DNA from: Desulfobacterales bacterium | GTDB lineage: Bacteria > Desulfobacterota > Desulfobacteria > Desulfobacterales > SpSt-501 | Assembly: GCA_030834695.1 (NCBI GenBank) | Contig: JAUQXK010000079.1 | Coordinates: 1-62,105, forward strand | Length of the DNA: 62,105 nucleotides | Direction of reading: 5' to 3' | In this document: piece after piece, positions 24,035 through 46,897 of the stretch | How positions within the stretch are numbered: position 1 is the first letter of the stretch | Layout of the letters: the number at the start of each line of letters is the position of its first letter | Notes under the pieces: model-generated | What the model was told of the DNA's origin: nothing | The model's input: only the letters and a program-made list of their open reading frames with translations | The model's database searches: none | Translations under genes and position numbers: made by a program

Positions 24035-24159
24035 GATGGCTGCGCCGAAAGCCCCGTCTCGGCGCTGCGCTTCACCCCGCACTCGCTGCGGCGTACCGGG
24101 TGTGCGCCTCGATCGGCGGGGTTCGCACGCTTTGATCTTGGGCTTTGGGCGCAGCCATC
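24035..24159. repeat. Palindromic repeat family R2, copy A
   Basis: The 20-nt arms at 24035-24054 (starts GATGGCTGCGCC) and 24140-24159 (ends GGCGCAGCCATC) are complementary at 19 of 20 positions. The core between them contains CTCGCTGCGGCGTACC and GCGCCTCGATC-type words. A related core with different arms occurs at 35533-35659. The second arm overlaps the stop codon of the OYE-USP gene. Confidence 0.75.
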
Positions 24160-26131
24160 AATCGATGAGGAGGAGGGTTTGGGTCGTGAGGGACTGCAGT
24201 ACGGCGGCGGAGACGCTTCCCAGAAGGAGCTGTTTGATCCGGGACAAACCGCGCTTGCCCATCACCAGAGTGCCGAAGTCGCCGTTTCTGATTTCGTTCA
24301 GGATGGTGGCAGCCACGTCCCCCGTTCGAGGCACCATGCGCAGCGGCACCGGCGCTTGCCATCCGAGGATTTTCTGGATTTCGCGCCAGCGTTTGGCCGC
24401 CCTCGCTTCCCCCCCCTGAATGACATGGAGAAAATCCAGTTTAAACTCCGTATGGGCCATGAACGATTGTTCGAGGTGACGCAGAACGAACAGGCTCGCC
24501 AGGCCGAGATCCAGAGGCACCAGGACTTTTGACCAGTGCGGGTGCGTGCCGATCAGGCTGACCGCCTTCGCCCGTTGCTGGTAAAGGAACCGCTCACGCC
24601 AGAGCTCCAAATGGTTGCGTCCCAGGATGATCGCCCCGAACCCTCCCTGCGTCATCTCGGCGCCGACGAGGCTCTCCGGCGATTCCTGAATGGCCATTAC
24701 TTTGTGGGACAGCCGCTCGTCGGCAATGCCGCGCCGCTGCCACAAGGCGCGGCTCCAGGCCGTAAACCCGGCCACGTTCTTATCAAAGTCGAGCTCCGGA
24801 TCGGCGGTTTTCAGAAAAAGAACCGTGGTGGAAGTGCCGGGCCGGGCCGGGATTCCCGCCGCCGCCACCGGGGTTCGCATGATATCCAGGTCACGCGCGC
24901 CGGCAACAATCCAGAGCGTCTTGGCGGTGTCGCGCTGGAGCAGCCGTTGTTCAAAATCGGCTTTCTCCCTGACCCCTGCCGGCCAGCAGGTGCAGGTAAA
25001 CCCATGCTCCAGCACCACTCCGCGCAGGCAAAGATTGCAGTTCCGACAGGCCGTGGCCGGTCGACCGGAACGAGCCTTGAACACCCAGCGGGGATCGGCC
25101 CTGAGCACCCGGCCCAGGCCGATCAAGTCGCCGGCACCTTCGGCAAGCAGTTCCTCCGCCAGTGTCGGCGTGAGCACCCGGCCGGAAACGATGACAGGGA
25201 CCGGCACGCGTTTCTTAAGCGCCAGGCTGTCTTCCCTGAGATAGCCGGGCCGGGCCGTGATCGCCCGCACCTCGGGTAGAAACATGGAATGATAGGTGGC
25301 TACGCTCGGTGAAAAATAACCGACTCCCTCCGCGGCCAGTTTTTCAGCGAACGATAAGGCCTCTCCCAGGTCGATGCCGTCCGGGACCCACTCGCGCAGC
25401 AGCAGGCGAAATCCGAAAAGGAACCCGTCCGGAAGCCGGCGTTTCACTTCGCGGACCACCTGCAGGGGGAACCGGATGCGCTCATCGAAACCCGCCGGCG
25501 ACCCGGAAGCGTCTTTGTGGCTGAAGCCTGAAAGGAACTGGGTCAGAAGGTAGCCGGTGGCACCATGCAGCTCGATTGCATCGAAACCGGCCGCGCAGGC
25601 CCGGCCGGCCGCCTCGCCGAATTCGGCCACGGCCGACTCTTTTTCATCCGCGCTCATGGAACGGTTCCATGCGCTCACCCGCTGCATGAAATCCCGGGTG
25701 AGCCCGAAACGATGCTCCAGGGGGAAGAATTCCATGAACTCTTTCAGACGGGCGAGGTGGAAGGGGATATGGGCCGCATCCAGTGCGGAAGGGGCCAGTG
25801 GATGAAGGGTCTTCGCGAAGCGGCCGCCGTGGTTGAGCTGCAGCACGGCCACCGCGCCCTGGCGCTTGATCGCAGACGCCAGTCGCTCCAATCCCGGCAG
25901 AAACTCGTCGGCATCCGCCCTCAGGTTGTTGACGGCCACCCGGCCGTCGGCGGCTACAGCGGCGTTGGCGACGACCACCATGGCCACTCCGCTTCGCGCC
26001 AGCGACGCATAATGCTCGATGAGCAACTCGCTGGCCCGGCCGTCCGGCCGTGCATAGCCGCTAAAGACCGGCAGGGCCACCAGCCGGTTTTCGAGGGTGC
26101 AGGGCCCGAGGCGGAAGGAGGTAAACAACAC
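24158..26131 (-). CDS. Old-yellow-enzyme oxidoreductase fused to Fe-S motif and universal-stress-protein domain(s)
   Basis: This 657-residue protein starts (GTG, with a GGGGG upstream) with a complete FMN-binding OYE barrel, about residues 1-330: LENRLVALPVFSGYA, VLQLNHGGRF, AGFDAIELHGATGYLLTQFLS, VIVSGRVLTP and LIGLGRVLRADP. It is followed by a cysteine cluster CRNCNLC plus 11 residues plus C, like the [4Fe-4S] site of 2,4-dienoyl-CoA reductase but with one spacing shortened. Where that family has an FAD/NAD domain, this protein has instead a USP-like region from about 390. The last 140 residues are a clear UspA domain ending in MGKRGLSRIKQLLLGS, the ATP-binding G-2x-G-9x-GS pattern; residues 390-520 (TTVLFLKTADPELD, GGFGAIILGRN) may be a degenerate second copy. 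Substrate and partner are unknown. It seems monocistronic. Confidence 0.85.
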   Translation of the reverse strand: MLFTSFRLGPCTLENRLVALPVFSGYARPDGRASELLIEHYASLARSGVAMVVVANAAVAADGRVAVNNLRADADEFLPGLERLASAIKRQGAVAVLQLNHGGRFAKTLHPLAPSALDAAHIPFHLARLKEFMEFFPLEHRFGLTRDFMQRVSAWNRSMSADEKESAVAEFGEAAGRACAAGFDAIELHGATGYLLTQFLSGFSHKDASGSPAGFDERIRFPLQVVREVKRRLPDGFLFGFRLLLREWVPDGIDLGEALSFAEKLAAEGVGYFSPSVATYHSMFLPEVRAITARPGYLREDSLALKKRVPVPVIVSGRVLTPTLAEELLAEGAGDLIGLGRVLRADPRWVFKARSGRPATACRNCNLCLRGVVLEHGFTCTCWPAGVREKADFEQRLLQRDTAKTLWIVAGARDLDIMRTPVAAAGIPARPGTSTTVLFLKTADPELDFDKNVAGFTAWSRALWQRRGIADERLSHKVMAIQESPESLVGAEMTQGGFGAIILGRNHLELWRERFLYQQRAKAVSLIGTHPHWSKVLVPLDLGLASLFVLRHLEQSFMAHTEFKLDFLHVIQGGEARAAKRWREIQKILGWQAPVPLRMVPRTGDVAATILNEIRNGDFGTLVMGKRGLSRIKQLLLGSVSAAVLQSLTTQTLLLID

Positions 26132-31983: not shown

Positions 31984-33609
31984 TCAGGTGGGGCCGGATG
32001 ATGAGGGTGTCAGAAAACGACCCGAATTTCGTGGGATTACGCATCCATTGAGCACGGCAAGGCTTCCGTTCACAAGGACGGCCTTGATGCCTTCCGGAGG
32101 CCGGCGCGGATCCTCATAGGTTGCCCGGTCGGTGATTCGTTCAGGATCGAAAACAACCAGATCGGCGAACTGACCCTCCCGCACCAGCCCCCGATCCTTC
32201 AAACCGAATTTCTGCGCTGGGAGGCCGGTCATTTTGCGGACGGCCTCCCCCAGTGCCAGCGCCTGCTGGTCGCGCACATAACGCCCGAGGATGCGCGGGA
32301 AGGCACCGTACCCGCGAGGGTGCGGCCGACCCTGGCCGGGCGGGCAGGGGATGGCATCGGTGCCGACCATTCCCAGCGGGTGGGCAAGGGCCGTCAGCAT
32401 GTCCTTTTCGTCCATCATGGTAAAGACCATGATCACGTCGGCATGCTCGGCGACGAGAATGTCGAAGAGCACTTCGAGCGGGTCTTGCCGGCGCTGCTCA
32501 GCGATGGTCGCGAGGTCCATTCCGACGATGGGATCGGACCGGCCCTGGCCGAGGGCGCCGATCTTGATGGCATTGAAACCGCAGGTTTGAACCCAGTTTT
32601 CCCACGTGGCGGTGTCCGTCTCGATGTCGCGGCGGATTTTGGCCCTTGTTTGAGGGTCTTTAAAATTGGCGATCAGCCCATCCACGCCCTGCGCGTGCGC
32701 CCAGCGTGGCACGAGCGTGCTGAGAAGGGTGCTGCCTTCGGTGTAAGGGTAGCAGTCGAAGTGCACCTCGATTCCATCGCGGCGAGCCTTCTCGATCCGG
32801 CTGAGCACCTGGTCGACTTTCCCCCGGCTGCCCGGGGCGAGGCCGATGACCTTCAAATGCGAAATCTGCAGCGATACGCCGCTGGCCGAACTGGTGGCGA
32901 GAGCCTCTTCGACCGACGCGTCGATCAGGCCGGCAGTCTCCCCGCGCGTGTGGGTCGCGTAAAGCCCTTGGTAATCTGCGACCACCCGGCACAGGGCCTC
33001 GATTTCGCTTGGGTCGGCGTAGCAGGCTGGAGGGTAGATCAGCCCGGAAGACAGCCCGAAGGCTCCGGCCTGCATGGATTGCTGCACCAGCCGACGCATC
33101 CGTTCGAGCTCGGCCGCACCGGGTCGATCCGGGCGGTTCCCCATCACCGCCATTCGCACGGACCCGTGGCCGACCAGCGGCACCATGTTGTGAGTCAGTC
33201 CGGCAGCTGAGCAGGCAGCCCGATATTCCGCCAGCGTCGCCCAGTCCCAGGCCGGCCGAACGCCGGGCAGAAATCCGGCCATGCTGCCGGCGCGCAGGCT
33301 GCGGAAGCGCTCCGAAACCGGGAAGGCGGTATAGCCGCACTGGCCGATGACTTCCGTGGTTACCCCCATGCGCAGCTTCTCGTGCTCCAGACCCGGAGCC
33401 AGCAACGCCAGGTCGGCGTGCGAATGGCAGTCGATGAAGCCGGGCGAAACCGTCATCCCGGAGGCGTCGAGTTCATCGTGCGACCAGCCGCCCGGAAGCG
33501 TCCCCAGTCCCTCGATGCGTCCGTTGCGGATGCCGATATCGGCTTCGAAGACGGCGCCGCCGCATCCGTCCACCACCTGACCGCTGCGGATGATGAGGTC
33601 GAACTTCAT
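31984..33609 (-). CDS. D-aminoacylase / N-acyl-D-amino-acid deacylase family amidohydrolase
   Basis: This 541-residue metal-dependent amidohydrolase would hydrolyse N-acyl-D-amino acids or similar amides. Signatures: the N-terminal beta-sandwich FDLIIRSGQVVDGCGG, the HxH metal motif VSPGFIDCHSHADLALL, the EVIGQCGYTAFPV segment with the Cys ligand, YATHTRGE and LQISHLKVIG with metal-binding His, and the late MVGTDAIPCPP with the catalytic Asp. C-terminal RDRGLVREGQFADLVVFDPE is typical of D-aminoacylases. It lies 24 nt downstream of a LivM-type permease gene and so is probably the last gene of that transport operon, processing what the transporter imports (inference). Confidence 0.93.
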   Translation of the reverse strand: MKFDLIIRSGQVVDGCGGAVFEADIGIRNGRIEGLGTLPGGWSHDELDASGMTVSPGFIDCHSHADLALLAPGLEHEKLRMGVTTEVIGQCGYTAFPVSERFRSLRAGSMAGFLPGVRPAWDWATLAEYRAACSAAGLTHNMVPLVGHGSVRMAVMGNRPDRPGAAELERMRRLVQQSMQAGAFGLSSGLIYPPACYADPSEIEALCRVVADYQGLYATHTRGETAGLIDASVEEALATSSASGVSLQISHLKVIGLAPGSRGKVDQVLSRIEKARRDGIEVHFDCYPYTEGSTLLSTLVPRWAHAQGVDGLIANFKDPQTRAKIRRDIETDTATWENWVQTCGFNAIKIGALGQGRSDPIVGMDLATIAEQRRQDPLEVLFDILVAEHADVIMVFTMMDEKDMLTALAHPLGMVGTDAIPCPPGQGRPHPRGYGAFPRILGRYVRDQQALALGEAVRKMTGLPAQKFGLKDRGLVREGQFADLVVFDPERITDRATYEDPRRPPEGIKAVLVNGSLAVLNGCVIPRNSGRFLTPSSSGPT

Positions 33610-33633
33610 GATCGCTCGGTGCGCATCGCCTGG

Positions 33634-34626
33634 CTAAATTCCTTTTCCCCTGGCCGCCTTTGCGCGTAGCAGCTTTTCTATGAGCCCCCACAGCCCGCCG
33701 CGGGCGAACAGGACGAAAAAGACGAACATGGCCCCCATGATGAGCATCCAGCGGTCCCACAGGGCGCTGGCCAGGTCCGAGGCCAGAACGATGATGAAAG
33801 CGCCGATCACCGGGCCGAAGAGGGTCCCCATTCCACCGGTCAGGACCATCATGACGATGTTGCCCGAAATCTCGAAATGGACAAAGTGAATGTGGGCAAA
33901 GCAGATATACATGCAGTAAAGGGAACCGGCCAGCCCCATGAAAAAGCCGCCGATAACAAACACGGCCATTTTGTAACGGCGCGTGTTATAGCCGATGGCC
34001 TGGGCGCGTTGCTCATTTTCACGAACGGCCATCAGCACCTTGCCGAACGGCGAGAGCGTGATGCGGCGGATGGTGTAGAACGCCGCGATAAAAAAGACGA
34101 ACGAAAAGAAGTAATAGGCCAGCGAAGATTGGAGGCTGATCGAGAAAAGGCCGGGGATTTCCAGATTCGGCCGCTTGATGCCGGTCAGACCGTTGTCTCC
34201 CCCGGTCAGCCCGCTCCATTGAAAGGCGATGAAATAAATCATTTCAGCAAAGGCCAGCGTCAGCAGGACCGAATAGCTGCCGCTGCGCTGGGTGGCCATG
34301 AATCCCACCACCAGGGCCAGCAGGGACGCAGCCAAAACGCCAACCACCATGGCGGCAAACAGGTTCGAGGTCAGATGCAGCAGCGTGAGCGCGGTTGCGT
34401 AAACCGCCGTTCCGAAAAAGGACGCCTGGCAGAACATCATCACGCCGCTGTACCCGAGGCACAGGTCGAAGGCCACGGCAGCCAGCGCAAAGAGCATGAT
34501 TTCGTTGGCCAGGGCCGTATAGGGCAGCACAAACGGAAAAACGGCAAACAGGCCCGCCAGCAGGGCCACCGACCGATGGCTCTGCCACCAGCGGTTCAGC
34601 GGTGCGGGTTCGGTGCGGGTCGGCAT
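33634..34626 (-). CDS. livM: Branched-chain amino acid-type ABC transporter permease (LivM)
   Basis: LivM is one of the two membrane subunits of the HAAT-family ABC importers. The 330-residue protein has about nine or ten hydrophobic helices and shows the family's ELMFALAAVAFDLCLGYSG-like segment (LFALAAVAFDLCLGYSGV), TGGDNGLTGIKRP, LMAVRENEQRAQAIGYNTRRYK (the cytoplasmic EAA-like loop that contacts the ATPase) and TGGMGTLFGPVIGAF. It is downstream of livH by 18 nt and upstream of the amidohydrolase. The matching ATPases LivG and LivF are absent from the window. Confidence 0.93.
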   Translation of the reverse strand: MPTRTEPAPLNRWWQSHRSVALLAGLFAVFPFVLPYTALANEIMLFALAAVAFDLCLGYSGVMMFCQASFFGTAVYATALTLLHLTSNLFAAMVVGVLAASLLALVVGFMATQRSGSYSVLLTLAFAEMIYFIAFQWSGLTGGDNGLTGIKRPNLEIPGLFSISLQSSLAYYFFSFVFFIAAFYTIRRITLSPFGKVLMAVRENEQRAQAIGYNTRRYKMAVFVIGGFFMGLAGSLYCMYICFAHIHFVHFEISGNIVMMVLTGGMGTLFGPVIGAFIIVLASDLASALWDRWMLIMGAMFVFFVLFARGGLWGLIEKLLRAKAARGKGI

Positions 34627-34644
34627 AGCAAGCGTTCCTTAACG

Positions 34645-35508
34645 TTAGTCCCGAATTCCCATCAGGCCGCGCGGCCGGATGAGCAAAATGGCGGCCATGA
34701 CCATGAAGATGATGATGACGGAGGCGCTGGGCATGACGAGAGTGACCATGCTCTGGCTCAAACCCACGATCAGGCCGCCCACGACGGCACCGGCAAAGCT
34801 GCCCATCCCGCCGATGACCACCGTGGCAAAGCAGATCCCCAGAATCAGATCTCCCATGAACGGCTCGATCCCGCGCATGGGGGCGGCCAGCACGCCGCTC
34901 AGCCCGGCGATGGCCATGGCCACCCCGAAGGTGAGAGTGAACACCCGCGAAATGTTGATCCCGAGGCAGCTCACCATCTTGAGGTTCTCGGTTCCGGCGC
35001 GGATGATGGAGCCCCAGCGGGTCTTTTCGATCACGAACCACATGCCGAGGGTCAGCAGGGCGGTCAGGCCGAACACGAAGATGCGATAAATCGGGAAAAA
35101 GATCCCGGCGATGGGAATCACTCCGGTGAGCAGCTCGGGCTGGTCGAAACTCTTGCCCACTGGTCCGTACAGCATGATGACCAGCTCGCGGCCGGCGATG
35201 GCGATCCCGTACGTCATGAGGATCTGGTAGAGAATGTTCTGGCCATACAGGCGTCGCAGAAGCGTCACCTCGAGCAGCATGCCGATGAGCGCGGTGGCCA
35301 GGGGCACGGCCAGCAGGCAGACCAGAAAGCTTCCGCTCCAGGAGGCGACCGTGAATGCCAGGTAGGCCCCGATGGCGAAGAAAAGGCCATGAGCGAAATT
35401 GATGATGTCCATCATGCCCCAAACGATGGACAGCCCCATGGCCAGCAGCACATAGATCATTCCCAGTACCAACCCGTTGAAGGCTTGCGCGATGATCAGA
35501 TCGGTCAT
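34645..35508 (-). CDS. livH: Branched-chain amino acid-type ABC transporter permease (LivH)
   Basis: LivH is the partner permease. From the ATG at 35508 the protein has 287 residues starting MTDLIIAQAFNGLVLGMIY. About eight helices are visible, with family words SIVWGMMDIINFAHG, GTENLKMVSCLGINISRVF (EAA-like loop) and VVIGGMGSFAGAVVGG. The longer open frame upstream runs through repeat R2 and is not part of the gene. The 250-bp gap to the binding-protein gene contains that repeat, so livH and the binding protein may be transcribed at different levels. Confidence 0.93.
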   Translation of the reverse strand: MTDLIIAQAFNGLVLGMIYVLLAMGLSIVWGMMDIINFAHGLFFAIGAYLAFTVASWSGSFLVCLLAVPLATALIGMLLEVTLLRRLYGQNILYQILMTYGIAIAGRELVIMLYGPVGKSFDQPELLTGVIPIAGIFFPIYRIFVFGLTALLTLGMWFVIEKTRWGSIIRAGTENLKMVSCLGINISRVFTLTFGVAMAIAGLSGVLAAPMRGIEPFMGDLILGICFATVVIGGMGSFAGAVVGGLIVGLSQSMVTLVMPSASVIIIFMVMAAILLIRPRGLMGIRD

Positions 35509-35532
35509 GCCGTGAATCCGTTTTCCCAGGTT

Positions 35533-35659
35533 TGTTGACTTCGTAAATAGTCCAATCTCTGCGTTGCGCGTCATCTGGTTGCCGCTGCGGCGTACGGTCG
35601 ATACGCCTCGCGGCACGAGATTCGCGCGCCTGGATCTTGGCCTCTTTACGAAGTTATCA
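35533..35659. repeat. Palindromic repeat family R2, copy B
   Basis: Arms near 35533-35554 (TGTTGACTTCGTAAATAG...) and 35638-35659 (...CTCTTTACGAAGTTATCA) are imperfectly complementary. The core (CTCTGCGTTGCGCGTCATC, CGCTGCGGCGTACG, TACGCCTCGCGG, GCGCGCCTGGATCT) matches that of copy A at 24035-24159, although the arms are unrelated. It fills the gap upstream of livH. Confidence 0.72.
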
Positions 35660-35757
35660 GGTTTGTATCGTCTCCGTTCCGGCTGCGGCCGGGCCCTTTC
35701 CCTATCAGGGTTCTATGGACTGAGCCCGGCGCATCGCCCCTTCTGCGGTCGGGCGCC

Positions 35758-36978
35758 TCAACTCATCTTGCAGCCGGTTTCGGCGCACGGCGGAATGTTT
35801 GTGGAGGAGCCGATGATGTCGGCGAAATCATCCGGGGTTTTCATCGCATCCGGAGCCTTGCATTGCAGCGTGTAGTAAGGCTTCACCGCCTGGTGATCGC
35901 AGGCCCTGAATTTCTCCGCACCGGTCAGCCCTTCATAGTCGTAATCCTCCATGGCCTGCACCACCTTGACCGGGTCGTCAGTCTTGGCCCGCTCGATGCT
36001 CTGGAGCAGCACCAGGATGTTCGTAAAGGGGTTGGCGGCCAGGTAGTTCGGCGTCTCGTTGAACTTCTTCCTGAACGCCTCGACAAACTTCCGGTTTCCT
36101 GGGGAGTCGATTTTGTAGAAGTACTGCAGCCCCCAGATGACGCCGTCCAGAATCTTGGGGCCGATGGCCTTCATCTGGGTGAGGCCGGAACCCCAGACAC
36201 AGGCGATGCGGGAGGCCTTGTTCAAGCCGAAGCTGTTGGCCTGTTTGAGGGCATTGGTGGTATCGCCGCCGAAATTCAAAAACAGGACGCAGTCGGCTTT
36301 GGCGGCCATGGCCTTGGTCAAGTGCGAGCTGAAATCGGACTCGCCCATGGGGTGGTCCGAATTGCCGAGCAGGGTGAGCCCCTTGGCCTTCAGCACCTCC
36401 TGCGTGTTGCGCAGCAGGTCCTCGCCGAAGACGTATTTGGGGGTAATGGTGTAAAAGGTCTTGGCCTTGTAAACGTCGATGATGCGCGGGACCACTTCGC
36501 GGATGGCGCTCCAGGTGGCGACCGGCCAGCGGAAGGTGAACCGGTTGCAGCTCTTGCCGGTGATTTCATCCGCGCCGGCGGCCCCGATCAGCAGCACCTT
36601 CTGCTTGGCGGCATATTCCGACACCGCCAGCACCGTCGGGCTGGAAGGAGAGACGAAGAAAAATTTGACGCCGAGCTTTTCAACCGCCTCCTGGGCTTTT
36701 TTGACGCCCTCAGAGGGGTTCGGCACATCGCGCTCGACGATCTCGACCGGCCGCCCCAGCACCTGACCGCCGAACATCTCCACCGCCAACTGAGTCCCTT
36801 TGCGGACATAGTCCCCGGTTTCGGCATAGGGCCCGGAAAAAGTGGTGCCGATCATGATTTTGAGGGGTTCGGCCCCCCAGGAGCGGAGCGGCATAAACCC
36901 TCCGGCTGCCAATCCCAGGCCGGCTCCGGCCAGTGCGGATTTTTTTAAAAAGGTCCGTCGCGTCACTTTTTTCTGCAT
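35758..36978 (-). CDS. ABC transporter substrate-binding protein (LivK-like, Tat-exported)
   Basis: This 406-residue periplasmic binding protein belongs to the type I branched-chain amino acid/amide family. A clear twin-arginine signal follows the ATG at 36978 (VTRRTFLKKSALAGAGLGLAAGG), and an AAGGGGG ribosome binding site supports that start. The mature protein begins EPLKIMIGTTFSGPYAETGDYV, the family's ligand-binding start, with FFFVSPSSPTVLAVSEYA and FLNFGGDTTNALKQAN further on. It is the first gene of a cluster with livH, livM and the amidohydrolase. Ligands of this family range from amino acids to amides and aromatic acids; the nearby deacylase suggests an acylated amino acid or amide. 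Confidence 0.92.
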   Translation of the reverse strand: MQKKVTRRTFLKKSALAGAGLGLAAGGFMPLRSWGAEPLKIMIGTTFSGPYAETGDYVRKGTQLAVEMFGGQVLGRPVEIVERDVPNPSEGVKKAQEAVEKLGVKFFFVSPSSPTVLAVSEYAAKQKVLLIGAAGADEITGKSCNRFTFRWPVATWSAIREVVPRIIDVYKAKTFYTITPKYVFGEDLLRNTQEVLKAKGLTLLGNSDHPMGESDFSSHLTKAMAAKADCVLFLNFGGDTTNALKQANSFGLNKASRIACVWGSGLTQMKAIGPKILDGVIWGLQYFYKIDSPGNRKFVEAFRKKFNETPNYLAANPFTNILVLLQSIERAKTDDPVKVVQAMEDYDYEGLTGAEKFRACDHQAVKPYYTLQCKAPDAMKTPDDFADIIGSSTNIPPCAETGCKMS

Positions 36979-37047
36979 GATGCCCCCTTTTTCGTTGAAG
37001 GTATTGTTGAATTCGCGCAACTGTCATGGACAACCAAAAATCAGATT

Positions 37048-37684: not shown

Positions 37685-38236
37685 ATGAAGGGGCTTTTGC
37701 ATCGACACGAACGTGCTGTCAGCTTGGATGCGTTCTTGGACTTGCTGCATCGGCAAGTCTATTCGGACCAATTGATTGTTTTCGGCAGTGGCGGCCGGAT
37801 AATACGCCTTCCGGAATACGCAACGGCCCAAGAATACCCGGAAATGTCAATTATCCGTTTAGGCCAAAACACGTCAGTGAGGGTCAATGGCAAAGCCGCA
37901 GCCATTGATTTCCGCCTTCCGGATGATGATTCAATTGAGATAATCACGGGCGACAAATTGAGACCACAAGAGACGGCGTGCGCGCTTTTTAAAGTCCAGA
38001 CGATGCCCGCTGAAAAACCAGATCGAACATGGGATGGTCATGAATCGTCTTTAGCTGCAGTTCAAAACAGCATAACGTGCAGGGTAAATGGGCTTTCAAT
38101 ACACAGGCAAAGGGAAAACCGCTGTGGGAACGTTGATCCGTCAATCAACCGTCCTTGCCTTAGTTGTTTTTGTTTCCTTCGCCATGAATCCTCTTTCTGC
38201 AGATGCTCAACAAACCCTCAGGATGATTGGCCCTGA
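37685..38236 (+). CDS. Doubtful small ORF upstream of the sugar transporter
   Basis: An open frame of 183 codons exists, of which the middle (YSDQLIVFGSGGRIIRL and MSIIRLGQNTSVRVNGKA) reads somewhat like a beta-rich protein. The last third overlaps the start of the following transporter gene in another frame and has Cys/Ser-rich composition that looks non-coding. I recognise no family. It may be a decayed gene whose true end was lost, and should be treated as low confidence. Confidence 0.2.
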   Translation: MKGLLHRHERAVSLDAFLDLLHRQVYSDQLIVFGSGGRIIRLPEYATAQEYPEMSIIRLGQNTSVRVNGKAAAIDFRLPDDDSIEIITGDKLRPQETACALFKVQTMPAEKPDRTWDGHESSLAAVQNSITCRVNGLSIHRQRENRCGNVDPSINRPCLSCFCFLRHESSFCRCSTNPQDDWP

Positions 38237-40088
38237 GGATGTGGGGGGAGCATGGGCCGAGGTGATTCATCGCTTCCACGCGGCCCATCGGGGCATCCGC
38301 ATCGACTACATCTCGGGCCCTTGGTCCACCGACGAACGGCAAAACATGTATATCCGAGCGTTTTTGGCAGGGGACGCCTTTGAGCTGGTTTACATGGATG
38401 TGATTTGGACAGCGAAATTTGCCTCCCAAGGGTGGCTGCTGCCGCTCGACAGATGGTTCTCCCCCGAGGTGCGCGAAACGCTAATTCCTCAAGGTATTGA
38501 AGCCGGCTTCTATCAAGGCCGTTTCTATCGAGTCCCAGTCCGATCCGACGTAGGGATGCTGTATTACCGAAAAGATCTTTTGCCGGAGCCGCCCAGGACC
38601 TGGGAAGAATTCGAGATAGTCTGCAATCGCTACGGAAATCCGCCGGATCGCTACTGCATCGTTTTTCAGGGAATGCAGTACGAGGGCCTCGTGTGCAACT
38701 ACCTCGAATATCTCTGGGGAGCGGGTGGAACCCCGATCGACAAAGATCAGAATGTTCTTCTCGATCGAGATGAAAACATTTCCGTGCTGTCCTTTATGAA
38801 AGAGGTGATTAGCCAGGGCTGGGCTCCCCGGAGCGTGATCACCTTTCAGGAGCAACAGGCCCTGGAGTTTTTCGAACAGGGAAAGGCGCTGATGATGCGC
38901 AACTGGCCCTATGCCTGGACCATCCTCAGGCGTTCGCCGCTCGAGGGCAAGGTGGGGATCGTCCCTTTCATCCATCGAACCGGCCACGAGCCAGCCGGCA
39001 CGCTGGGCGGCTGGGGTCTGGGGATTGCCCGAGGCGCCAGATTCCCGGAGGCGGCAGCGAAGTTCATCGAATTTACAGTTTCACCGGAGGCTCAGAAGGT
39101 TTTGCACTTCCGCAGAGGAGCCGTCCCCGCACTGAAGTCGTTGTTTAAGGACGAGGAAATTTTACAGGAAAGCCCGCATTATACCGATCTCTACGAAGTG
39201 CTGCTAAAATCGCGGATGAGACCCATTCATCCCGATTATCCACGAATCAGCTCCATCATGCAGAAGCATGTCAGCGCCGTCCTGGTGGGAATCGAAAGCC
39301 CCAGGGAAGCGGCGCTACAAATGGACCAATCCATCGAGGGGCTCATCAAGGGCAAACGCCACAGCTGGCCCCTGCGCCTCTATTTCGATCATGATCTCAA
39401 AATGACCCTGAAGAACACCCTCGTCTTCACCGGCCTCTCCGTTCCGTTTGAATTCCTTTTAGGTCTCTTTTTCGCCCTGTTGGCCCATCAGCCTTTCCGG
39501 GGAAGGACTATGTTGCGACTCAGCGTGCTGGTGCCCTGGGCGCTGCCGACAGCCGTGATGGCCATGGCCTGGCAGTGGATGTTCAACAACCCCTTCGGCG
39601 TGATCAACGACCTGATGGTACGAGTTGGAATTCTATCCAAACCCATGGATTGGCTTTCCACGCCCGAAGGAGCCATGTTCGCCGCCGTCTTCGCCGATGT
39701 CTGGAAAACGACTCCCTTCGTCGCCATCATTCTTCTGGCCGGCCTTCAGAGCATTCCACAGCAACTCAAAGAGAGTCTTTCCATCGACGGGGGCGGGACG
39801 AGGATGATGTTTTTCCATCTGATCTTGCCTCTGCTGATGCCTTTCATTCGGGTCGCGCTTATTTTCAGAATTATCCATGCTGCTGGGATATTCGATCTGA
39901 TATGGGTCCTAACCAAGGGGGGGCCGGCGGACACGACACGGACGTTGAGCCTCTACATCTATGATCTGGCCTTCCGCTACGATGAGGTGGGCTATGCCCT
40001 CTTTCTGACCGGTCTGTTTCTCATCAGCCTCATTCTTGTCAGCCTTTTGATTGTCCGTTCCACAGCCCTCCGGTACGAGAGAATCTAA
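38088..40088 (+). CDS. Fused sugar-binding protein and MalF-type ABC permease
   Basis: One 666-residue polypeptide combines two subunits of a CUT1-type carbohydrate ABC importer. Residues 19-38 form a hydrophobic signal or anchor. Residues about 42-410 are a family 1 solute-binding protein (DAFELVYMDVIWTAKFASQGWL, GGWGLGIARGARFPEAAAKF). From about 442 a MalF-like permease follows, with five helices beginning TLVFTGLSVPFEFLLGLFFA and the EAA loop LKESLSIDGGGTRMMFFHLI near 560. If the N-terminal segment stays as the first helix, the binding domain occupies the periplasmic loop before helix 2, so topology is consistent. The ATG has AGGG 8 nt upstream. MalG-type permease and ATPase genes follow within 5 nt each. 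The sugar is unknown. Confidence 0.88.
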   Translation: MGFQYTGKGKTAVGTLIRQSTVLALVVFVSFAMNPLSADAQQTLRMIGPEDVGGAWAEVIHRFHAAHRGIRIDYISGPWSTDERQNMYIRAFLAGDAFELVYMDVIWTAKFASQGWLLPLDRWFSPEVRETLIPQGIEAGFYQGRFYRVPVRSDVGMLYYRKDLLPEPPRTWEEFEIVCNRYGNPPDRYCIVFQGMQYEGLVCNYLEYLWGAGGTPIDKDQNVLLDRDENISVLSFMKEVISQGWAPRSVITFQEQQALEFFEQGKALMMRNWPYAWTILRRSPLEGKVGIVPFIHRTGHEPAGTLGGWGLGIARGARFPEAAAKFIEFTVSPEAQKVLHFRRGAVPALKSLFKDEEILQESPHYTDLYEVLLKSRMRPIHPDYPRISSIMQKHVSAVLVGIESPREAALQMDQSIEGLIKGKRHSWPLRLYFDHDLKMTLKNTLVFTGLSVPFEFLLGLFFALLAHQPFRGRTMLRLSVLVPWALPTAVMAMAWQWMFNNPFGVINDLMVRVGILSKPMDWLSTPEGAMFAAVFADVWKTTPFVAIILLAGLQSIPQQLKESLSIDGGGTRMMFFHLILPLLMPFIRVALIFRIIHAAGIFDLIWVLTKGGPADTTRTLSLYIYDLAFRYDEVGYALFLTGLFLISLILVSLLIVRSTALRYERI

Positions 40089-40090
40089 AT

Positions 40091-40912
40091 ATGAAAAAAC
40101 TGATCTTCTCCATCGCGATCGCTTCTATCCTTCTGTATTGCCTCTTTCCTTTTTTCTGGACCATTCAGACGGCCCTGAAGCCAGCCGGTACGGTCTTTCG
40201 GCTTCCGGTGAGCTACCTCCCGGAAACGATCTCCCTGGAGAACATTATCGACGTATTCTCGAAGCGGCCCTTCGGCCGCTATGTGCTGAACAGCCTGATC
40301 GCCGGGGGAGGGGCGACGATCCTTACCTTGTGGGTGGCGGCCGTCCTCTCCTTCCGGCTGAGAGCCTTGGACCTTCGCCGCGCGCTGCGGATCCAGCGGT
40401 GGTTTCTGGTCGGAGCCATCCTGCCGCCGGCCCTTTTGGTCATCCCCGTTTTCGTCGTGATGAAACAGCTGTCGCTGGTGAACAATTACCTCGCCCTCAT
40501 CCTGGCCTATACGGCCCTGAATCTGCCTTTTGCCGTATGGATGCTGCATGCGGCGTTTCGGCAGATTCCAAAGGAGCTCGATGAGGCGGCGGTCATGGAC
40601 GGCTTCTCTCAGTCTGCCATCCTCTATCGAATCATCCTTCCGCTGAGCCGGCCGTCTCTGGCCGTGACCGCCGTGCTCGTATTCATCTTCTGCTGGAACG
40701 AGTTTATCCTGGCATTGTCCCTAATGCCAGCCCAGTCCAAATACACCGTGCCAGTGGGCATCGCCCTTCTGAGCGGCGCCTCCGGCTACGAAATCCCCTG
40801 GGGCGAAATCAATGCGGCCGTTGCATTAACGACCGTACCCATCATCCTCGTCATCGCGGCGTTTCAGCGCTGGATCATCGAAGGGCTGACCACGGGGGCC
40901 GTCAAAGGATGA
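40091..40912 (+). CDS. MalG-type sugar ABC transporter permease
   Basis: This 273-residue protein is the second membrane subunit of the CUT1 importer. Six hydrophobic segments are present, from ISIAIASILLYCLFPFFWTI-like residues near the start (FSIAIASILLYCLFPFFWTI) to VPIILVIAAFQRWIIEG at the end. The EAA loop PKELDEAAVMDGFSQSAI followed by ILPLSRPSLAVTA near residue 160-185 binds the ATPase. The C-terminal IIEGLTTGAVKG is the standard MalG-like ending. It starts 2 nt after the fused binding-protein/permease gene and ends 4 nt before the ATPase gene. Confidence 0.95.
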   Translation: MKKLIFSIAIASILLYCLFPFFWTIQTALKPAGTVFRLPVSYLPETISLENIIDVFSKRPFGRYVLNSLIAGGGATILTLWVAAVLSFRLRALDLRRALRIQRWFLVGAILPPALLVIPVFVVMKQLSLVNNYLALILAYTALNLPFAVWMLHAAFRQIPKELDEAAVMDGFSQSAILYRIILPLSRPSLAVTAVLVFIFCWNEFILALSLMPAQSKYTVPVGIALLSGASGYEIPWGEINAAVALTTVPIILVIAAFQRWIIEGLTTGAVKG

Positions 40913-40916
40913 GATC

Positions 40917-41981
40917 ATGGCAGCCGTCGAACTGAGAGGGATCAGCAAGTCGTTCATCGAGGGATCGTTTCCCGCGCTCAAAGACATCCATCTTGGGATA
41001 CCCGACGGCGCCTTCGCCGGCATCCTCGGTCCATCCGGATGCGGCAAGACGACCCTGCTCAGGATTGTGGCGGGTTTGGAACGCCCGGATGCCGGGGAAA
41101 TCCTCATCGCCGGACAGGTCGCAAACCGCATCCCACCGCGGGAGCGCAACGTGGCGATGGTTTTTCAGAATTACGCCCTCTACCCTCACAAGCGGGTTTA
41201 TGAGAACATCGCCATCGGCCTTCAACTGCGGGGCGTCTCCAAGGAACGGATCGCGGAAAAAGTGGAAGCGGTTGCAAATATGTTAAAGATTGAAACCCTG
41301 GTGGATCGCTACCCGAAACAACTCTCCGGAGGACAGCAGCAGCGGGTGGCGCTGGCCAGGGCTTTGGTGAGAGAGCCGGAGGTATTTCTCCTTGACGAAC
41401 CGCTCAGCAACCTGGACGCCCAGGTCAGAGAGGCTACGCGCTCCGAACTCAAAAAACTTTTCCGCGGGATCAAGGCTACGGTCCTCTATGTGACGCATGA
41501 CCAAACCGAAGCGATGATGATGTCGGATTATCTCATCGTCATGGACCGAGGAGTGATCCGGCAGGCCGGCGAGCCAACGCACATCTATCGAGACCCGGCG
41601 CACCGCTTCGTTGCCGAATTCATCGGCGCGCACCGCATCATCTCAGTTCCGGGTCGGCTGCAGAACGGGCGCTTCCAATCAGCGGACGAAGCATTTGGAT
41701 TCGATACACCGATGCGGGTGACGAGCGAAGTCTTGATGGCAATCCGACCCGAGAATCTCATTCCCGAGAGCCAGGAAGAAATCGGGTTGCAGGGAGAAGT
41801 GGTTCTGATCGAACCGATGGGGCCTACGAATCTCATCTCGGTCAAAGTCGGGCAAACCGAATGGAGGATGTGTTTTGCCCGCCGACCGATTGAGGGGGAA
41901 ATAATGGGATTCTCTTTTTCATCCAGTAATGCGCTTTTTTTTGATGCAAAAAGCGGCTTGCGCCTTAAGCCGGGAAACTGA
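40917..41981 (+). CDS. Sugar ABC transporter ATPase (MalK/UgpC-like)
   Basis: This 354-residue cytoplasmic ATPase drives the CUT1 importer. Walker A is GPSGCGKTTLL near residue 37, the Q-loop VFQNYALYPH, the signature LSGGQQQRVALARAL near 135, Walker B VFLLDEPLSNLD and the switch His VTHDQTEAM. A C-terminal TOBE-type regulatory domain (from about 240, AIRPENLIPESQEE) is typical of MalK/UgpC. The frame closes an operon of three genes with 2-4 nt gaps. One ATPase would serve as a homodimer for the two permeases. Confidence 0.95.
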   Translation: MAAVELRGISKSFIEGSFPALKDIHLGIPDGAFAGILGPSGCGKTTLLRIVAGLERPDAGEILIAGQVANRIPPRERNVAMVFQNYALYPHKRVYENIAIGLQLRGVSKERIAEKVEAVANMLKIETLVDRYPKQLSGGQQQRVALARALVREPEVFLLDEPLSNLDAQVREATRSELKKLFRGIKATVLYVTHDQTEAMMMSDYLIVMDRGVIRQAGEPTHIYRDPAHRFVAEFIGAHRIISVPGRLQNGRFQSADEAFGFDTPMRVTSEVLMAIRPENLIPESQEEIGLQGEVVLIEPMGPTNLISVKVGQTEWRMCFARRPIEGEIMGFSFSSSNALFFDAKSGLRLKPGN

Positions 41982-42275: not shown

Positions 42276-44162
42276 TTATCCGAATTTTTCCACCAATTGG
42301 GATAAGCCTAGCTTCTCAAGAGTATCCTTTGTTGGGGCCCCCGTCTCCGCATCCCAGCCCATCGCCAGTCGGTACTCCCGCGCGAGGCTGTCGACGTCGA
42401 TGGTCACCCCGGCCAGAGGTCCTTCGGCTTGCGGCGGGCGGCCGAGCATGCGCTCCGGCAAACGGACGCTTTCGGCGGCAATTCCCTCGCGCAGGTTGAA
42501 ACTCTGGCGCAGGGCCTGGATGCGTGCGCCGGCGGTGAGCGCTTCGGCCACATCCACGCCCCAGCCGGTGACGGCGTTGAGCAGTTCGATCAGGGGGTAG
42601 TTGCCGAAGAACATGAAGGGCATGACGCAGACGCCGGCGCAGTTGCCCACCTGAAGGTAGCGCGAAGCGGTCGCGCTCATCGGTCCCTTGCCAGTATATG
42701 CGTAACGCTCGAACTTGTCGATGCGCAGCTCGGGGTAGGGCGCGTACGCCCCCGGCCCTCCCTCCAGGCGCGCCATGGGCGCCGCTGTGTGGCGGCCGGG
42801 GGTCGGGTCGCACACGAAGCCGGTGCCGCGGCTGGGCAGGAAGAGCGCGTTGTGCAAGCCCGGCTCCTGGCCGCCGACGTGCACGGCGCAGTCATCGGCG
42901 CCGCTGCCGATGCTTCGGGCAGCTGCTCGCACGCCGTCGGCGAGCAAGTCGCCGATGCCTTCGCGGCGGATCACCTTATCGAGCAGCGCCACCATGGCCG
43001 GGCCGTTGCCCCAGGTGATCCGGATTCCGTCGGTGTCGTTCTCGTTGAGAATGCCCTTTTCGAAACACTCCATGGCAAACGCGAGCACGTGTCCGGCGGA
43101 GATGGTGTCCAGCCCGCTGCGGTTGCACATGTCGTGCAGCTTGATGATCGTCTCCAGGTCGTCGCACAGGCACAGCGGCCCGAAGGCGCCGATGGTCTCG
43201 TATTCGGGCTTGTGCACTTCCCCCACGGGGTATTTCCCGTCGGAGACGTCGCAGATGCCGCCGCAGGCGATGGGACAGCTCGCACAGCCGTATTTGCGGG
43301 TCTGGAACCGGATGACCGCATCGCCGTCGGCGATCTGTTTGACGCCGGGAAACGCCTGCTCGCCGGCCAGCTGCCAGTTCTTGACGGGCGTCGCGCCCCC
43401 GGCGACCAGCGCGGCGGTGAACCCGCAGGTGCCGTGTTTCTGAAGTGCCTGAGCCATTCCCGGCAGGTCGCGGATTTGCCGGGCGAAGTCCTTGGCGAGA
43501 CGGCCGAGTTCGGCGGCATCGGCGACCGGAACCCTGGCGCGGCCGCGGACCGCCACCGCTTTGAGGTTTTTGGAGCCCATCACCGCGCCCACGCCCGAGC
43601 GCGCGGCGATGCGGCCGCGGTCGTTGACGATTCCGGAGATCAGGGACAGGCGCTCGGAGGCCGGGCCGATGCCGGCGACACGGATCTTGGGATCATTAAG
43701 CTCCTTTTGAATGGCCGCTTCGGCCTCGATAGTGTCCAGCCCCCACAGGTGGGCGGCATCCCGGATTTCGATGCGACCGTCCGTGATCCACACCAACCGC
43801 GGCGCCGCGGCCTTTCCGGAAACGAACACGGCGTCGAAGCCGGCGGCTTTCAGTTCGCTGCCGAAATAGCCGCCGGCGTTGGCGTCGCCCCAGCCGCCGG
43901 TGAGCGGTGATTTGCAGCAGGCCATGTAGCGGCCTCCGGTGGGCGCCTTGGTGCCGGTCAGCGGTCCGGCCGCCAGCCCCAGGATGTTCTCGGGTCCGAG
44001 CGGGTCGACTTGTTTGGCTTGACGTTCAAACAGAATCCGTACGCCGAGCCCATAGCCCCCGATAAAATCGCGGCAGGTGGATTCGGGCAGGGATTCCACC
44101 TGAACCGTGCCGGCGCTCAGATCGACAAACGCCGCTTTTCCCATATATCCGCCGGGCATCAT
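42276..44162 (-). CDS. Aldehyde:ferredoxin oxidoreductase family tungstoenzyme
   Basis: This 628-residue enzyme oxidises aldehydes to acids with ferredoxin, using a tungsten (or molybdenum) bis-pyranopterin and one [4Fe-4S] cluster. The N-terminal domain has CRDFIGGYGLGVRIL and GPLTGTKAPTGGRYMACCKS. A cofactor-binding RSGVGAVMGSKNLKAVAV follows, and the cluster motif CASCPIAC near residue 291 has the CX2CX3C spacing; the fourth Cys is likely that in GNCAGVCVMPF. The start at 44162 is supported by a near-perfect AAGGAGGT ribosome binding site. Length matches the AOR family. It is divergent from the PEP-synthase-like gene across 149 bp. Substrate may be any of several aldehydes. Confidence 0.95.
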   Translation of the reverse strand: MMPGGYMGKAAFVDLSAGTVQVESLPESTCRDFIGGYGLGVRILFERQAKQVDPLGPENILGLAAGPLTGTKAPTGGRYMACCKSPLTGGWGDANAGGYFGSELKAAGFDAVFVSGKAAAPRLVWITDGRIEIRDAAHLWGLDTIEAEAAIQKELNDPKIRVAGIGPASERLSLISGIVNDRGRIAARSGVGAVMGSKNLKAVAVRGRARVPVADAAELGRLAKDFARQIRDLPGMAQALQKHGTCGFTAALVAGGATPVKNWQLAGEQAFPGVKQIADGDAVIRFQTRKYGCASCPIACGGICDVSDGKYPVGEVHKPEYETIGAFGPLCLCDDLETIIKLHDMCNRSGLDTISAGHVLAFAMECFEKGILNENDTDGIRITWGNGPAMVALLDKVIRREGIGDLLADGVRAAARSIGSGADDCAVHVGGQEPGLHNALFLPSRGTGFVCDPTPGRHTAAPMARLEGGPGAYAPYPELRIDKFERYAYTGKGPMSATASRYLQVGNCAGVCVMPFMFFGNYPLIELLNAVTGWGVDVAEALTAGARIQALRQSFNLREGIAAESVRLPERMLGRPPQAEGPLAGVTIDVDSLAREYRLAMGWDAETGAPTKDTLEKLGLSQLVEKFG

Positions 44163-44311
44163 CCAGCACCTCCTTGGAAACATTGGCCGCACTATAGCGG
44201 GCCGCCGCCGGTTTGACAACGGTTCTTTCCCCTTTCGCGGCTGCCTCTTGTAGTCGGGGCGAAATCGATACATACTGGCGCCATCCGTCATCTCAAACCG
44301 TTGAGGCGCGT

Positions 44312-46897
44312 ATGTTCAAATTTTTCGATTTCTTCCGCAAGGGCCGAGACGCCGAATGCGGCGCTCCGGACGACTCGATTTTTCACCGCAAGTACGGGAG
44401 CTTCAAACAGCTGCTGCTTGCCAACAACCACGCCCTGGAGATCATCGCCGATCTTGAAAATACGATCTACCAGGACCAGCCGTTCACTTACATGTATGCC
44501 GTATCCCAGACGGAGGCCCTGGTGATGGAGGTCAACTCCATCGCCCGGAACTTGAACGAGCTGTCCGGGAACCGTTATGCGGAGTTGGCCGAGGCGGCCC
44601 AGCGGATCGCGGGGAAGGTTTTCACGGAGCTCCAGCACAAGCGGCACTTCGAGGACACCAGCTTCGTGCTGCCCATCGAACGGCTGAGCCTCGAAAATGC
44701 CGGCGAGGTGGGCGGCAAAGCGGCCAACCTCGGTGAGGTCTTCAACCGGGCCCACCTTCCGGTTCCGCCGGGTTTCGCCATCACCGCTTACGGGTATCAG
44801 CTTTTCCTGGATTACAACGAGCTGACCGACCTGATCCAGAGGAAGCTCAAGAACCTGGACATCAACCACACCGAGGCCCTCATGGCGGTGTGCCAGGAGA
44901 TTCAGAACCGCATCCTGGATGCCGATCTGCCGACCGATCTGGAAAGCTCCATTCTGCAGGCCGCCCGGGACCTGCGCGAAAATATCCCCTACGATTTCAA
45001 GCTGTCCGTCCGCAGCAGCGCCACCAGTGAAGATTCCGAGGCCAGTTTCGCCGGCCAGCATTCGACGGTGCTGAACGTCAGCGAAGCCAACCTGATCGAG
45101 GCTTACAAGGAGGTGGTGGCGAGCACCTTCAGCCCCCGGGCGGTATATTATCGGCGGCGGCGCGGCTACCGCGATCAGGACGTGAACATGAGCGTCGCCT
45201 GCATCGTCATGATCGACGCCAAGGTCAGCGGGGTCATGTACACGGTGAATCCCAACGACAGCCGCCACGCCGTGATCATGATCAGCGCGGTCTGGGGGCT
45301 GGCGGCCGACGCCGTGGAAGGGTCCGCGCCCACCGATTTCTTCCAGGTGAGCAAGAAGACGCTGGCCGTCGAGGCGGAGGAGGTGGCCGTCAAGGATCGC
45401 CGTCTGCGCGTCGACGCGGCCGACGGCGTGAGCGAAGAGGTGCTGCCGGAGGACCTCCGGCGTACGGCCTGTTTGCGTCCCGCGGAAATCCGGCAGCTGG
45501 CCGACTACGGTCTGAAGCTGGAGCAGCATTACGGGTACGCCCTGGACATCGAATGGGCCATCGACGCACAGGGAAGGCTTTTCATCCTGCAGGCGCGTCC
45601 GCTGAAGCGGTCCCAGCGGTTCGGGGCGGATCAGGTGGCCGTCACCGGCGGTCCGGAACCCGCGCCCATCTCCCATCCGGTTCTGCTCAAGGGGGGGCAG
45701 ACGGCCTGCGACGGAGCCGCCTCGGGCTATGCCTTCATCATCGAGTCGGACCACTTGCTGCATCACATCCCCGAGGGCGTGGTGGTGGTCGCGCGCCAGA
45801 CCTCTCCGCGCTATGTTCCGCTCATGGGGCGGATCCGGGCCTTCATCACCGATGTCGGCAGCGTCACGGGGCACATGGCCTCGGTGGCCCGCGAATTCCG
45901 CATCCCCACCCTGGTGGGCCTCGGCAACGCCACCCGCACCATCCCGCATGGCGAGGAGATCACGGTGGATGCCACCCAGCGCGTCATTTACCGCGGCCGG
46001 GTGGACCAACTGCTCGCCGAAAAAAAACCCCTGAACCCCATGAAGGACAGCCCCACCTACAACCTGATGAAGTCGGTCCTTCGGCGCATCGCGCCCCTGA
46101 ACCTCACGGACCCGCAAAGGGAGAATTTCAGCCCGGCCGGGTGCCGGACCCTGCACGATGTGATCCGTTTCGCTCACGAGATGTCGATGCAGGAGATGTT
46201 CCGCATCAGCGATGCTGCACGGCCGGAGGACTGCCTGGCGGTTCCGCTGAGGGCCTACCTGCCCATGAAGATCCTGGTGGTGGATCTGGGGGACGGATTG
46301 CGTCCCGAACGCCGCGGCGCGCACGCCGAGGTGAACGACGTAATTTCGATTCCCTTTCGCGCGCTGCTGCAGGGGATGAAGCACGAACAGGTGGACTGGT
46401 CCCGGGATGTGGGGATCAGCTGGGGGGGATTTGCTTCGATCGTGGCGCAGACCGCGATCCGCGACCCCATGACCGAGGGGCGCATGGGCGCTCCGAGCTA
46501 CGCTATCATTGCGGGCCACTACCTCAATTTCAACTCCCGCCTGGGTTACCACTTCACGACCGTCGACACGTTCTGCGGGCCGGCGGTGAACGACAACTAC
46601 ATCACTTTTTACTTCAAAGGCGGGGCGGCCGATATCGGCCGCCGGTCGCGGCGCGCGCTGATGATCGCCCAGATTCTCAAGCAGATGGGCTTCAAGGTCG
46701 AGCAGAAGGGCGACATGGTCCGAGGTGAGATCAAGAAGTATGAGGAGAGCTTCCTCGTCGAGAAGATCGACCTGCTGGGCCGGCTGCTGGGGAGTGTCCG
46801 GCTGCTGGACATGCACCTGGCCGACGACCGGCAGGTGGAATGGTACGTGGAGCAGTTCATGCAGGGGAACTATCGCTTCGAGGCGAAGACCGCATGA
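44312..46897 (+). CDS. PEP-synthase-like protein (PEP/pyruvate-binding ATP-grasp plus phosphohistidine domain)
   Basis: This 861-residue protein shares two of the three domains of phosphoenolpyruvate synthase. Residues 1-150 are a family-specific N-terminal region; 150-465 are the ATP-binding domain (NAGEVGGKAANLGEVF, FKLSVRSSATSEDSEASFAG, IEWAIDAQGRLFILQARPL). The mobile phosphohistidine domain follows, with the His at about 521 in VTGHMASVAREFRIPTLVG. The last 260 residues (MKILVVDLGDGL, FASIVAQTAIRDP) do not show the PEP-binding barrel that PEP synthase and PPDK have. It therefore probably phosphorylates a His but transfers the phosphate elsewhere. The start has a GAGG ribosome binding site. 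The stop overlaps the next start (ATGA), so the two are coupled. Confidence 0.85.
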   Translation: MFKFFDFFRKGRDAECGAPDDSIFHRKYGSFKQLLLANNHALEIIADLENTIYQDQPFTYMYAVSQTEALVMEVNSIARNLNELSGNRYAELAEAAQRIAGKVFTELQHKRHFEDTSFVLPIERLSLENAGEVGGKAANLGEVFNRAHLPVPPGFAITAYGYQLFLDYNELTDLIQRKLKNLDINHTEALMAVCQEIQNRILDADLPTDLESSILQAARDLRENIPYDFKLSVRSSATSEDSEASFAGQHSTVLNVSEANLIEAYKEVVASTFSPRAVYYRRRRGYRDQDVNMSVACIVMIDAKVSGVMYTVNPNDSRHAVIMISAVWGLAADAVEGSAPTDFFQVSKKTLAVEAEEVAVKDRRLRVDAADGVSEEVLPEDLRRTACLRPAEIRQLADYGLKLEQHYGYALDIEWAIDAQGRLFILQARPLKRSQRFGADQVAVTGGPEPAPISHPVLLKGGQTACDGAASGYAFIIESDHLLHHIPEGVVVVARQTSPRYVPLMGRIRAFITDVGSVTGHMASVAREFRIPTLVGLGNATRTIPHGEEITVDATQRVIYRGRVDQLLAEKKPLNPMKDSPTYNLMKSVLRRIAPLNLTDPQRENFSPAGCRTLHDVIRFAHEMSMQEMFRISDAARPEDCLAVPLRAYLPMKILVVDLGDGLRPERRGAHAEVNDVISIPFRALLQGMKHEQVDWSRDVGISWGGFASIVAQTAIRDPMTEGRMGAPSYAIIAGHYLNFNSRLGYHFTTVDTFCGPAVNDNYITFYFKGGAADIGRRSRRALMIAQILKQMGFKVEQKGDMVRGEIKKYEESFLVEKIDLLGRLLGSVRLLDMHLADDRQVEWYVEQFMQGNYRFEAKTA

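Follow-up and report, generated by a model that had tools for sequence, protein, structure and literature searches.

Organization of the fused gene and its operon

The importer operon lies on the forward strand of the window, i.e. the whole stretch of 62,105 nucleotides that was analysed. Its first gene (38088-40088) is a single uninterrupted ATG frame of 666 residues, whose start is not certain, as no strong ribosome-binding site is seen and an in-frame GTG lies 12 codons downstream (by eye). A Pfam search assigns residues 51-337 to SBP_bac_1 (E 2.7e-34, 120 bits for a cut-off of 26) and residues 457-657 to BPD_transp_1 (E 3.5e-18), both above their curated cut-offs. The preliminary description of this DNA had read a binding protein and a permease in one frame, and this reading holds: neither domain is absent, and homologous single frames occur elsewhere (see below).

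The protein can be divided into four parts. A signal segment (residues 1-40, 38088-38207) ends at a probable signal peptidase I site, at which cleavage is predicted. It is followed by a complete binding-protein domain of the trehalose/maltose-binding-protein kind (residues 41-422, 38208-39353), assigned by Pfam and by sequence and structure matches, then by a short linker (residues 423-434, 39354-39389), delimited by alignment and by an AlphaFold2 model. The remainder (residues 435-666, 39390-40085) is, on the basis of Pfam, sequence matches, hydropathy and the model, a five-helix permease part of the MalF/SugA type. It contains what we take to be an EAA-like loop near residues 562-585, a motif recognised by eye. 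The AlphaFold2 model used was built from 19 alignment rows and has a pLDDT of 83.5, an earlier one from 11 close sequences being poor (65.4). Its long helices in the permease part span residues 435-467, 473-500, 526-554, 571-609 and 634-659, the second with a pLDDT of about 50 only. Hydropathy likewise gives five hydrophobic segments in this part, although such counts are rough, since the same threshold yields 3-4 permease-part segments in three other fused proteins and 4-7 segments in all in four unfused permeases.

Two genes follow on the same strand. The first (40091-40912), 2 nt after the fused gene, encodes a second permease of the MalG/UgpE/GlcU type, with a BPD_transp_1 domain, matching profiles and six hydrophobic segments. 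The second (40917-41981), after a further 4 nt, encodes a MalK/UgpC-type ATPase with a TOBE_2 domain (24.1 bits for a cut-off of 21; UgpC profile 369.5 bits for a cut-off of 432). The transporter thus looks complete, as had been proposed from these short gaps. The best named permease profiles, UgpA/MalF and UgpE/GlcU/MalG, all stay under their equivalog cut-offs. The features of CUT1 importers are present, namely a family-1 binding protein, two different MalF/MalG-type permeases and a MalK/UgpC-type ATPase with a C-terminal TOBE domain, and the best matches of the binding-protein and permease parts are CUT1 proteins. The one feature that is absent is a binding protein made as a separate polypeptide. 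As it shares one frame with a permease, the system is a variant of CUT1 rather than a standard member: judged by its sequence, it is a CUT1-type importer in which the binding protein is fused to a MalF-type permease devoid of helix 1.

Other genes of the window were also inspected. On the reverse strand, 24158-26131 encodes a flavin oxidoreductase (Oxidored_FMN) with a C-terminal universal-stress-protein stretch, a pairing that looks unusual. Also on the reverse strand, 31984-37020 carries hydrophobic frames resembling branched-chain-type permeases (by eye), a Peripla_BP_6 binding protein and an amidohydrolase, possibly forming one unit of uptake and degradation. Downstream of the importer, an aldehyde:ferredoxin oxidoreductase gene (42276-44291, reverse strand) adjoins a forward-strand gene (44213-46897) whose product has PPDK_N and PEP-utilizers domains only.

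The fusion in other bacteria

A search of genome contigs retrieved 14 loci encoding a relative, and in 10 of them both domains lie in one open frame. These ten (L026-L034 and L039) are 57-80% identical to the window protein, L028 and L032 being cut by a contig end; the other four (L035-L038, from Synechococcus and Gemmatimonas/Gemmatimonadaceae) have stops between the domains. With three more genomes that carry a fused frame, 14 fused proteins were examined, including that of the window, 12 of them full length. Their sources include genomes with the titles Deltaproteobacteria, Syntrophaceae, Desulfobacterales, Nitrospirae and Hydrogenothermaceae, and their identity to the window protein falls as low as 54% in the binding protein and 60% in the permease part.

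The same single frame is therefore found in 13 further proteins, as the preliminary description had suggested looking for, and this led us to reject a frameshift or assembly artefact. Separate production of the permease from an internal start was rejected as well, as the candidate methionine of the window protein, before the first permease helix, is missing in the other 13 rows. Taken together, an artefact or an internal start is hardly credible. The fusion is genuine, and is a modest variation on a well-known importer.

A different possibility is that the fusion is a mere precursor, a periplasmic protease cutting the linker to free the binding protein. We consider this very improbable: the linker is free of indels, and hence of constant length, in all 12 full-length fused proteins, and the region around it (residues 421-440) is well ordered in the model, with block means of 92 and 91. 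More generally, not a single indel is found over residues 283-666 (window numbering) across the 12 full-length rows.

When 14 fused and 9 unfused rows are placed in one tree, all the fused proteins fall on one branch with a support of 100/100, present in all 200 bootstrap trees, several unfused rows being long-branched and of unsure order. The fused design, common to distant bacteria, thus probably has a single origin. Within the order, 3 of 389 genomes carry it, with at most three candidates scored per genome; all three belong to the window's genus, of which 7 genomes were sampled. It was found in 2 of 136 genomes of the phylum of the Hydrogenothermaceae genome G396, in 1 of 198 of the phylum of G394 (two other matches, G570 and G672, being unfused) and in 7 of 297 of the phylum of G392 (two other matches, G764 and G839, being unfused), the samples of 389, 198 and 297 having been drawn from larger groups. 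Among plasmid records, 702 of the 2582 that match cover at least 80% of the query; of the 40 records listed, 15 have two separate features and 25 none, and the one examined (L091) is unfused. In two Hydrogenothermaceae genomes (L033, 7935-8756; L039, 4936-5757), the fused operon has no adjoining ATPase gene, so that these operons may rely on an ATPase encoded elsewhere.

Unfused relatives and the loss of the first permease helix

In the unfused relatives (L035-L038, L083-L086 and L091), the binding protein and the permease are encoded by two genes. A possible permease start overlaps the stop of the binding-protein gene by a few bases in eight of these nine (L083-L086 and L035-L038), a gap separating the two in L091. 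Before the stretch that matches the fused proteins, the unfused permeases have 48-65 additional residues (five relatives measured), and this N-terminal stretch holds a hydrophobic segment in all four permeases for which hydropathy was computed. The fused proteins do not have it. The MalF-like part had been described as lacking its first helix, and the comparison with these relatives bears this out.

A binding protein ends outside the membrane and a permease starts inside, so that joining them requires a helix to be lost or gained; once helix 1 is lost, the periplasmic C-terminus of the binding protein can be joined to the permease with the topology undisturbed. One in-frame deletion, removing the stop codon of the binding-protein gene together with permease helix 1, could accordingly be enough to fuse the two genes and keep the topology.

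The tether of the binding protein may have changed at the same time. One search pattern detects a lipoprotein-type cysteine motif in L083, L084, L085, L037 and L038, hence in 5 of the 9 unfused relatives, and in none of the 14 fused proteins; a looser pattern adds L086 to the former (6 of 9) and finds one fused protein, L088 (1 of 14). As the motif occurs in unfused relatives and in nearly no fused protein, a lipid tether may have been swapped for a covalent one. A parallel for such an exchange exists in another family, the Bacillus OpuAC being lipid-tethered and the Lactococcus OpuA fused, according to excerpts of PMC2861598.

A cleaved signal or a membrane anchor at the N-terminus

The preliminary description had further proposed that the N-terminal segment replaces the missing helix. 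Whereas the absence of helix 1 stands, the role of this segment as an anchor appears less likely. Signal peptidase I sites follow a (-3,-1) rule, and a site fitting this rule can be placed just before the binding protein in all 14 fused N-termini, although this placement, made by eye and with assumed start codons, is lenient. The distance from the N-terminus to the putative site varies from 20 to 58 residues, when residues 283-666 do not vary in length, and the apolar run is only 9-14 residues long in 4 of the 14. In addition, the alignment of mature solved binding proteins with the model begins at about residue 41, right after the putative site of the window protein.

If the segment were instead an uncut signal anchor standing in for helix 1, the transporter would have 6+6 helices and the binding protein would sit in the first periplasmic loop. 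The best 19-residue hydropathy of the fused N-termini, which ranges from 1.36 to 2.70, permits a membrane helix in some proteins (window 1.73, L031 2.44, L029 2.70) and is weak in others (L033 1.36, L039 1.52). The helix modelled by AlphaFold2 at residues 13-33, which would suit an anchor, is of low confidence and does not decide between the two; OpuA, for its part, has a signal anchor (excerpts of PMC2861598). We consider an anchor unlikely, though far from negligible. A cleaved signal, followed by a five-helix permease that starts outside, is favoured by these sequence features at about 70 to 30.

Substrate and physiological role

The closest solved binding proteins are MalE3 (6dtq), a trehalose/maltose-binding protein (1eu8) and an alpha-glycoside-binding protein (6j9w and its mutants), which we take to be from Thermus thermophilus, with E values of 1e-64 to 3e-47 and Z scores of about 49 over about 380 residues. 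The residues mutated in 6j9w according to entry titles, R49, D118, W287 and R356, align with R84, D154, W309 and R378 of the fused protein. All four are invariant in 11 fused rows, in which 156 of 382 binding-protein positions are invariant. The structure comparison matches listed are of the binding-protein type, hardly cover the permease half, whose assignment is based on sequence, and include no OpuA or GlnP chain. Together, the sequence and structure matches suggest that the substrate is likely a small alpha-glucoside.

What the cell does with this substrate was approached through gene neighbourhood. In one fused locus (L027), genes of an osmolyte type are convergent with the importer operon: a full-length GpgS match (376 bits for a cut-off of 700), a phosphatase above the mannosyl-3-phosphoglycerate phosphatase (MPGP) cut-off, a glycosyltransferase whose assignment is doubtful (46 bits to GpgS for a cut-off of 262) and, in the same group, a mechanosensitive-channel protein. 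Given the MPGP-type phosphatase, mannosylglycerate is as possible as glucosylglycerate. L027 was the only fused locus seen to have such genes adjacent. Among unfused relatives, L086 is preceded by a TreT-like gene and by a bifunctional trehalose-phosphate synthase/phosphatase gene (OtsAB), the latter above cut-off, and L035 by GgpS, above cut-off; GpgS matches, both under cut-off, lie within about 1.5 kb of L083 and 5.5 kb of L085, the latter match being cut by the end of the examined stretch.

Two side observations can be made on such loci. In Hydrogenothermaceae, a compact glycosylglycerate-type unit (L060, 7878-13500, reverse strand) encodes a GpgS-like protein, a related glycosyltransferase, a glycerate 2-kinase-like protein, an MPGP-family phosphatase and a 2-hydroxyacid dehydrogenase; the fused gene of that contig lies about 140 kb away. 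Short proteins that look similar by eye and have no NCBIfam match are encoded upstream of two unfused relatives (L085, 2822-3562; L086, 2696-3361).

The idea that glycosylglycerate synthesis accompanies the fusion across genomes was also considered, and was dropped. The L027-type glycosyltransferase is found in all 13 genome entries with the fusion, which represent 11 distinct genomes (G002/G389 and G001/G391 are duplicates with the same contig and coordinates). It is, however, present throughout the window's genus irrespective of the fusion (7 of 7 sampled genomes, 3 of which have the fusion), and in 3 of 51 relatives outside this genus. In the phylum sample of G392 it occurs in 122 of 297 genomes, compared to 5 of the 7 fused ones, two of which are without it at E 1e-50; this co-occurrence is not significant (Fisher p 0.10). 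GpgS is present in 13 of 15 genomes, namely 9 of 11 fused ones and all 4 unfused ones of the window's genus. Only the gene neighbourhood was therefore kept, as weak support.

The importer could alternatively be nutritional, taking up maltose, trehalose or another disaccharide as a carbon source. Maltose and trehalose are indeed bound by the best solved relatives, no recognised osmolyte gene lies beside the window operon, and L027 has a PfkB-type kinase gene a few kb upstream of its fused gene; a minority of the neighbour genes was profiled, so that a glycosidase may have escaped notice. Against it stand the osmolyte-synthesis genes in the vicinity of five relatives, one fused and four unfused. 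We regard a nutritional role as a serious alternative whose chances fall somewhat short of even, and put the odds of an osmolyte role at roughly even or a little above.

Comparison with known systems and proposed mechanism

CUT1 importers are made of four gene products, with a separate binding protein, as stated in excerpts of the review PMC11212667. The mycobacterial trehalose importer LpqY-SugABC, a CUT1 system, has the same kinds of binding protein and permease (LpqY, 7ape_A, E 1e-36; SugA-type chain, 7cad_A, E 5e-29 against the fused protein). LpqY is, however, a separate chain and a named lipoprotein, and the match to the SugA-type chain begins only at its residue 86, after residues that the fusion lacks. 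Similarly, 1eu8 (Thermococcus litoralis) and 6dtq (Thermotoga maritima), with 33% identity to the fused binding protein, were solved as separate proteins with no permease attached. The cyanobacterial GgtABCD system, which imports glucosylglycerol, trehalose and sucrose, is described in excerpts of PMC2874817. From gene order, we infer that Synechococcus L035, which has an adjacent GgpS gene, is Ggt. The Synechococcus binding protein and permease (L035/L036) are homologous to the fusion (34-46% identity) but encoded by separate genes, and the L035 permease keeps hydrophobic segment 1.

Fusions of a binding protein with a permease have precedents in other importer families. The NCBIfam family NF043073 is a permease/substrate-binding protein for polyamines, and in OpuA (glycine betaine) and GlnPQ (glutamine) the binding protein is covalently joined to the permease as here (excerpts of PMC2861598 and PMC8025302). 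OpuA and GlnPQ differ from the fused importer in substrate. OpuA is dimeric, each half carrying a binding protein, and has a signal anchor, by which it appears to have taken another route to fusion, as far as PMC2861598 describes it in excerpt; GlnPQ has tandem binding proteins. In the sugar importer, by contrast, a helix was lost and one binding protein per transporter is expected. A tethered binding protein had been called unusual for this family, and in the open-access literature searched we found no such fusion described for CUT1 sugar importers, which is not proof of novelty; a search on five-helix permeases returned nothing relevant. Within that literature, the CUT1 version is new, with an ordinary function.

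Our preferred reading, to which we give a probability of about two-thirds, is thus a CUT1-type alpha-glucoside importer with the binding protein and the MalF-type permease in one polypeptide, a cleaved signal, and a likely role in the uptake or recapture of compatible solutes. The signal peptide would be cut after about residue 40. The binding protein would fold outside the membrane, joined by a short turn and a helix to the five-helix permease, with its N-terminus outside. This permease would pair with its six-helix MalG-type partner and two copies of the ATPase; as the partner has no binding protein, each transporter is expected to hold exactly one, captive. After closing on its sugar, the binding protein would dock on its own permease, and ATP would drive the usual type I alternating-access import. 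A glycosyl compatible solute of the trehalose, glucosyl- or mannosylglycerate, or glucosylglycerol type would be the likely cargo.

How this design arose can be proposed more tentatively. The ancestor would have been a four-gene system, in which an in-frame deletion ran across the stop codon of the binding-protein gene and helix 1. We hold it possible, at clearly less than even odds, that this single event turned an importer with a lipid-anchored binding protein into one with a captive binding protein and a 5+6-helix pair, which then spread among distant phyla as an osmolyte importer. If so, helix 1 would be dispensable in the MalF-type half and a lipid tether replaceable by a covalent one.

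The fused importer could also be of use for the study of the family. In OpuA and GlnPQ, where tethered binding proteins are studied, each channel is served by two or more of them. With a single binding protein per channel, a heterodimeric sugar importer would lend itself more cleanly to the question of whether a pool of free binding protein is needed, and could also probe the orientation of the binding protein on the permease and the role of MalF-type helix 1. The homologous unfused four-gene systems would provide a natural before-and-after pair.
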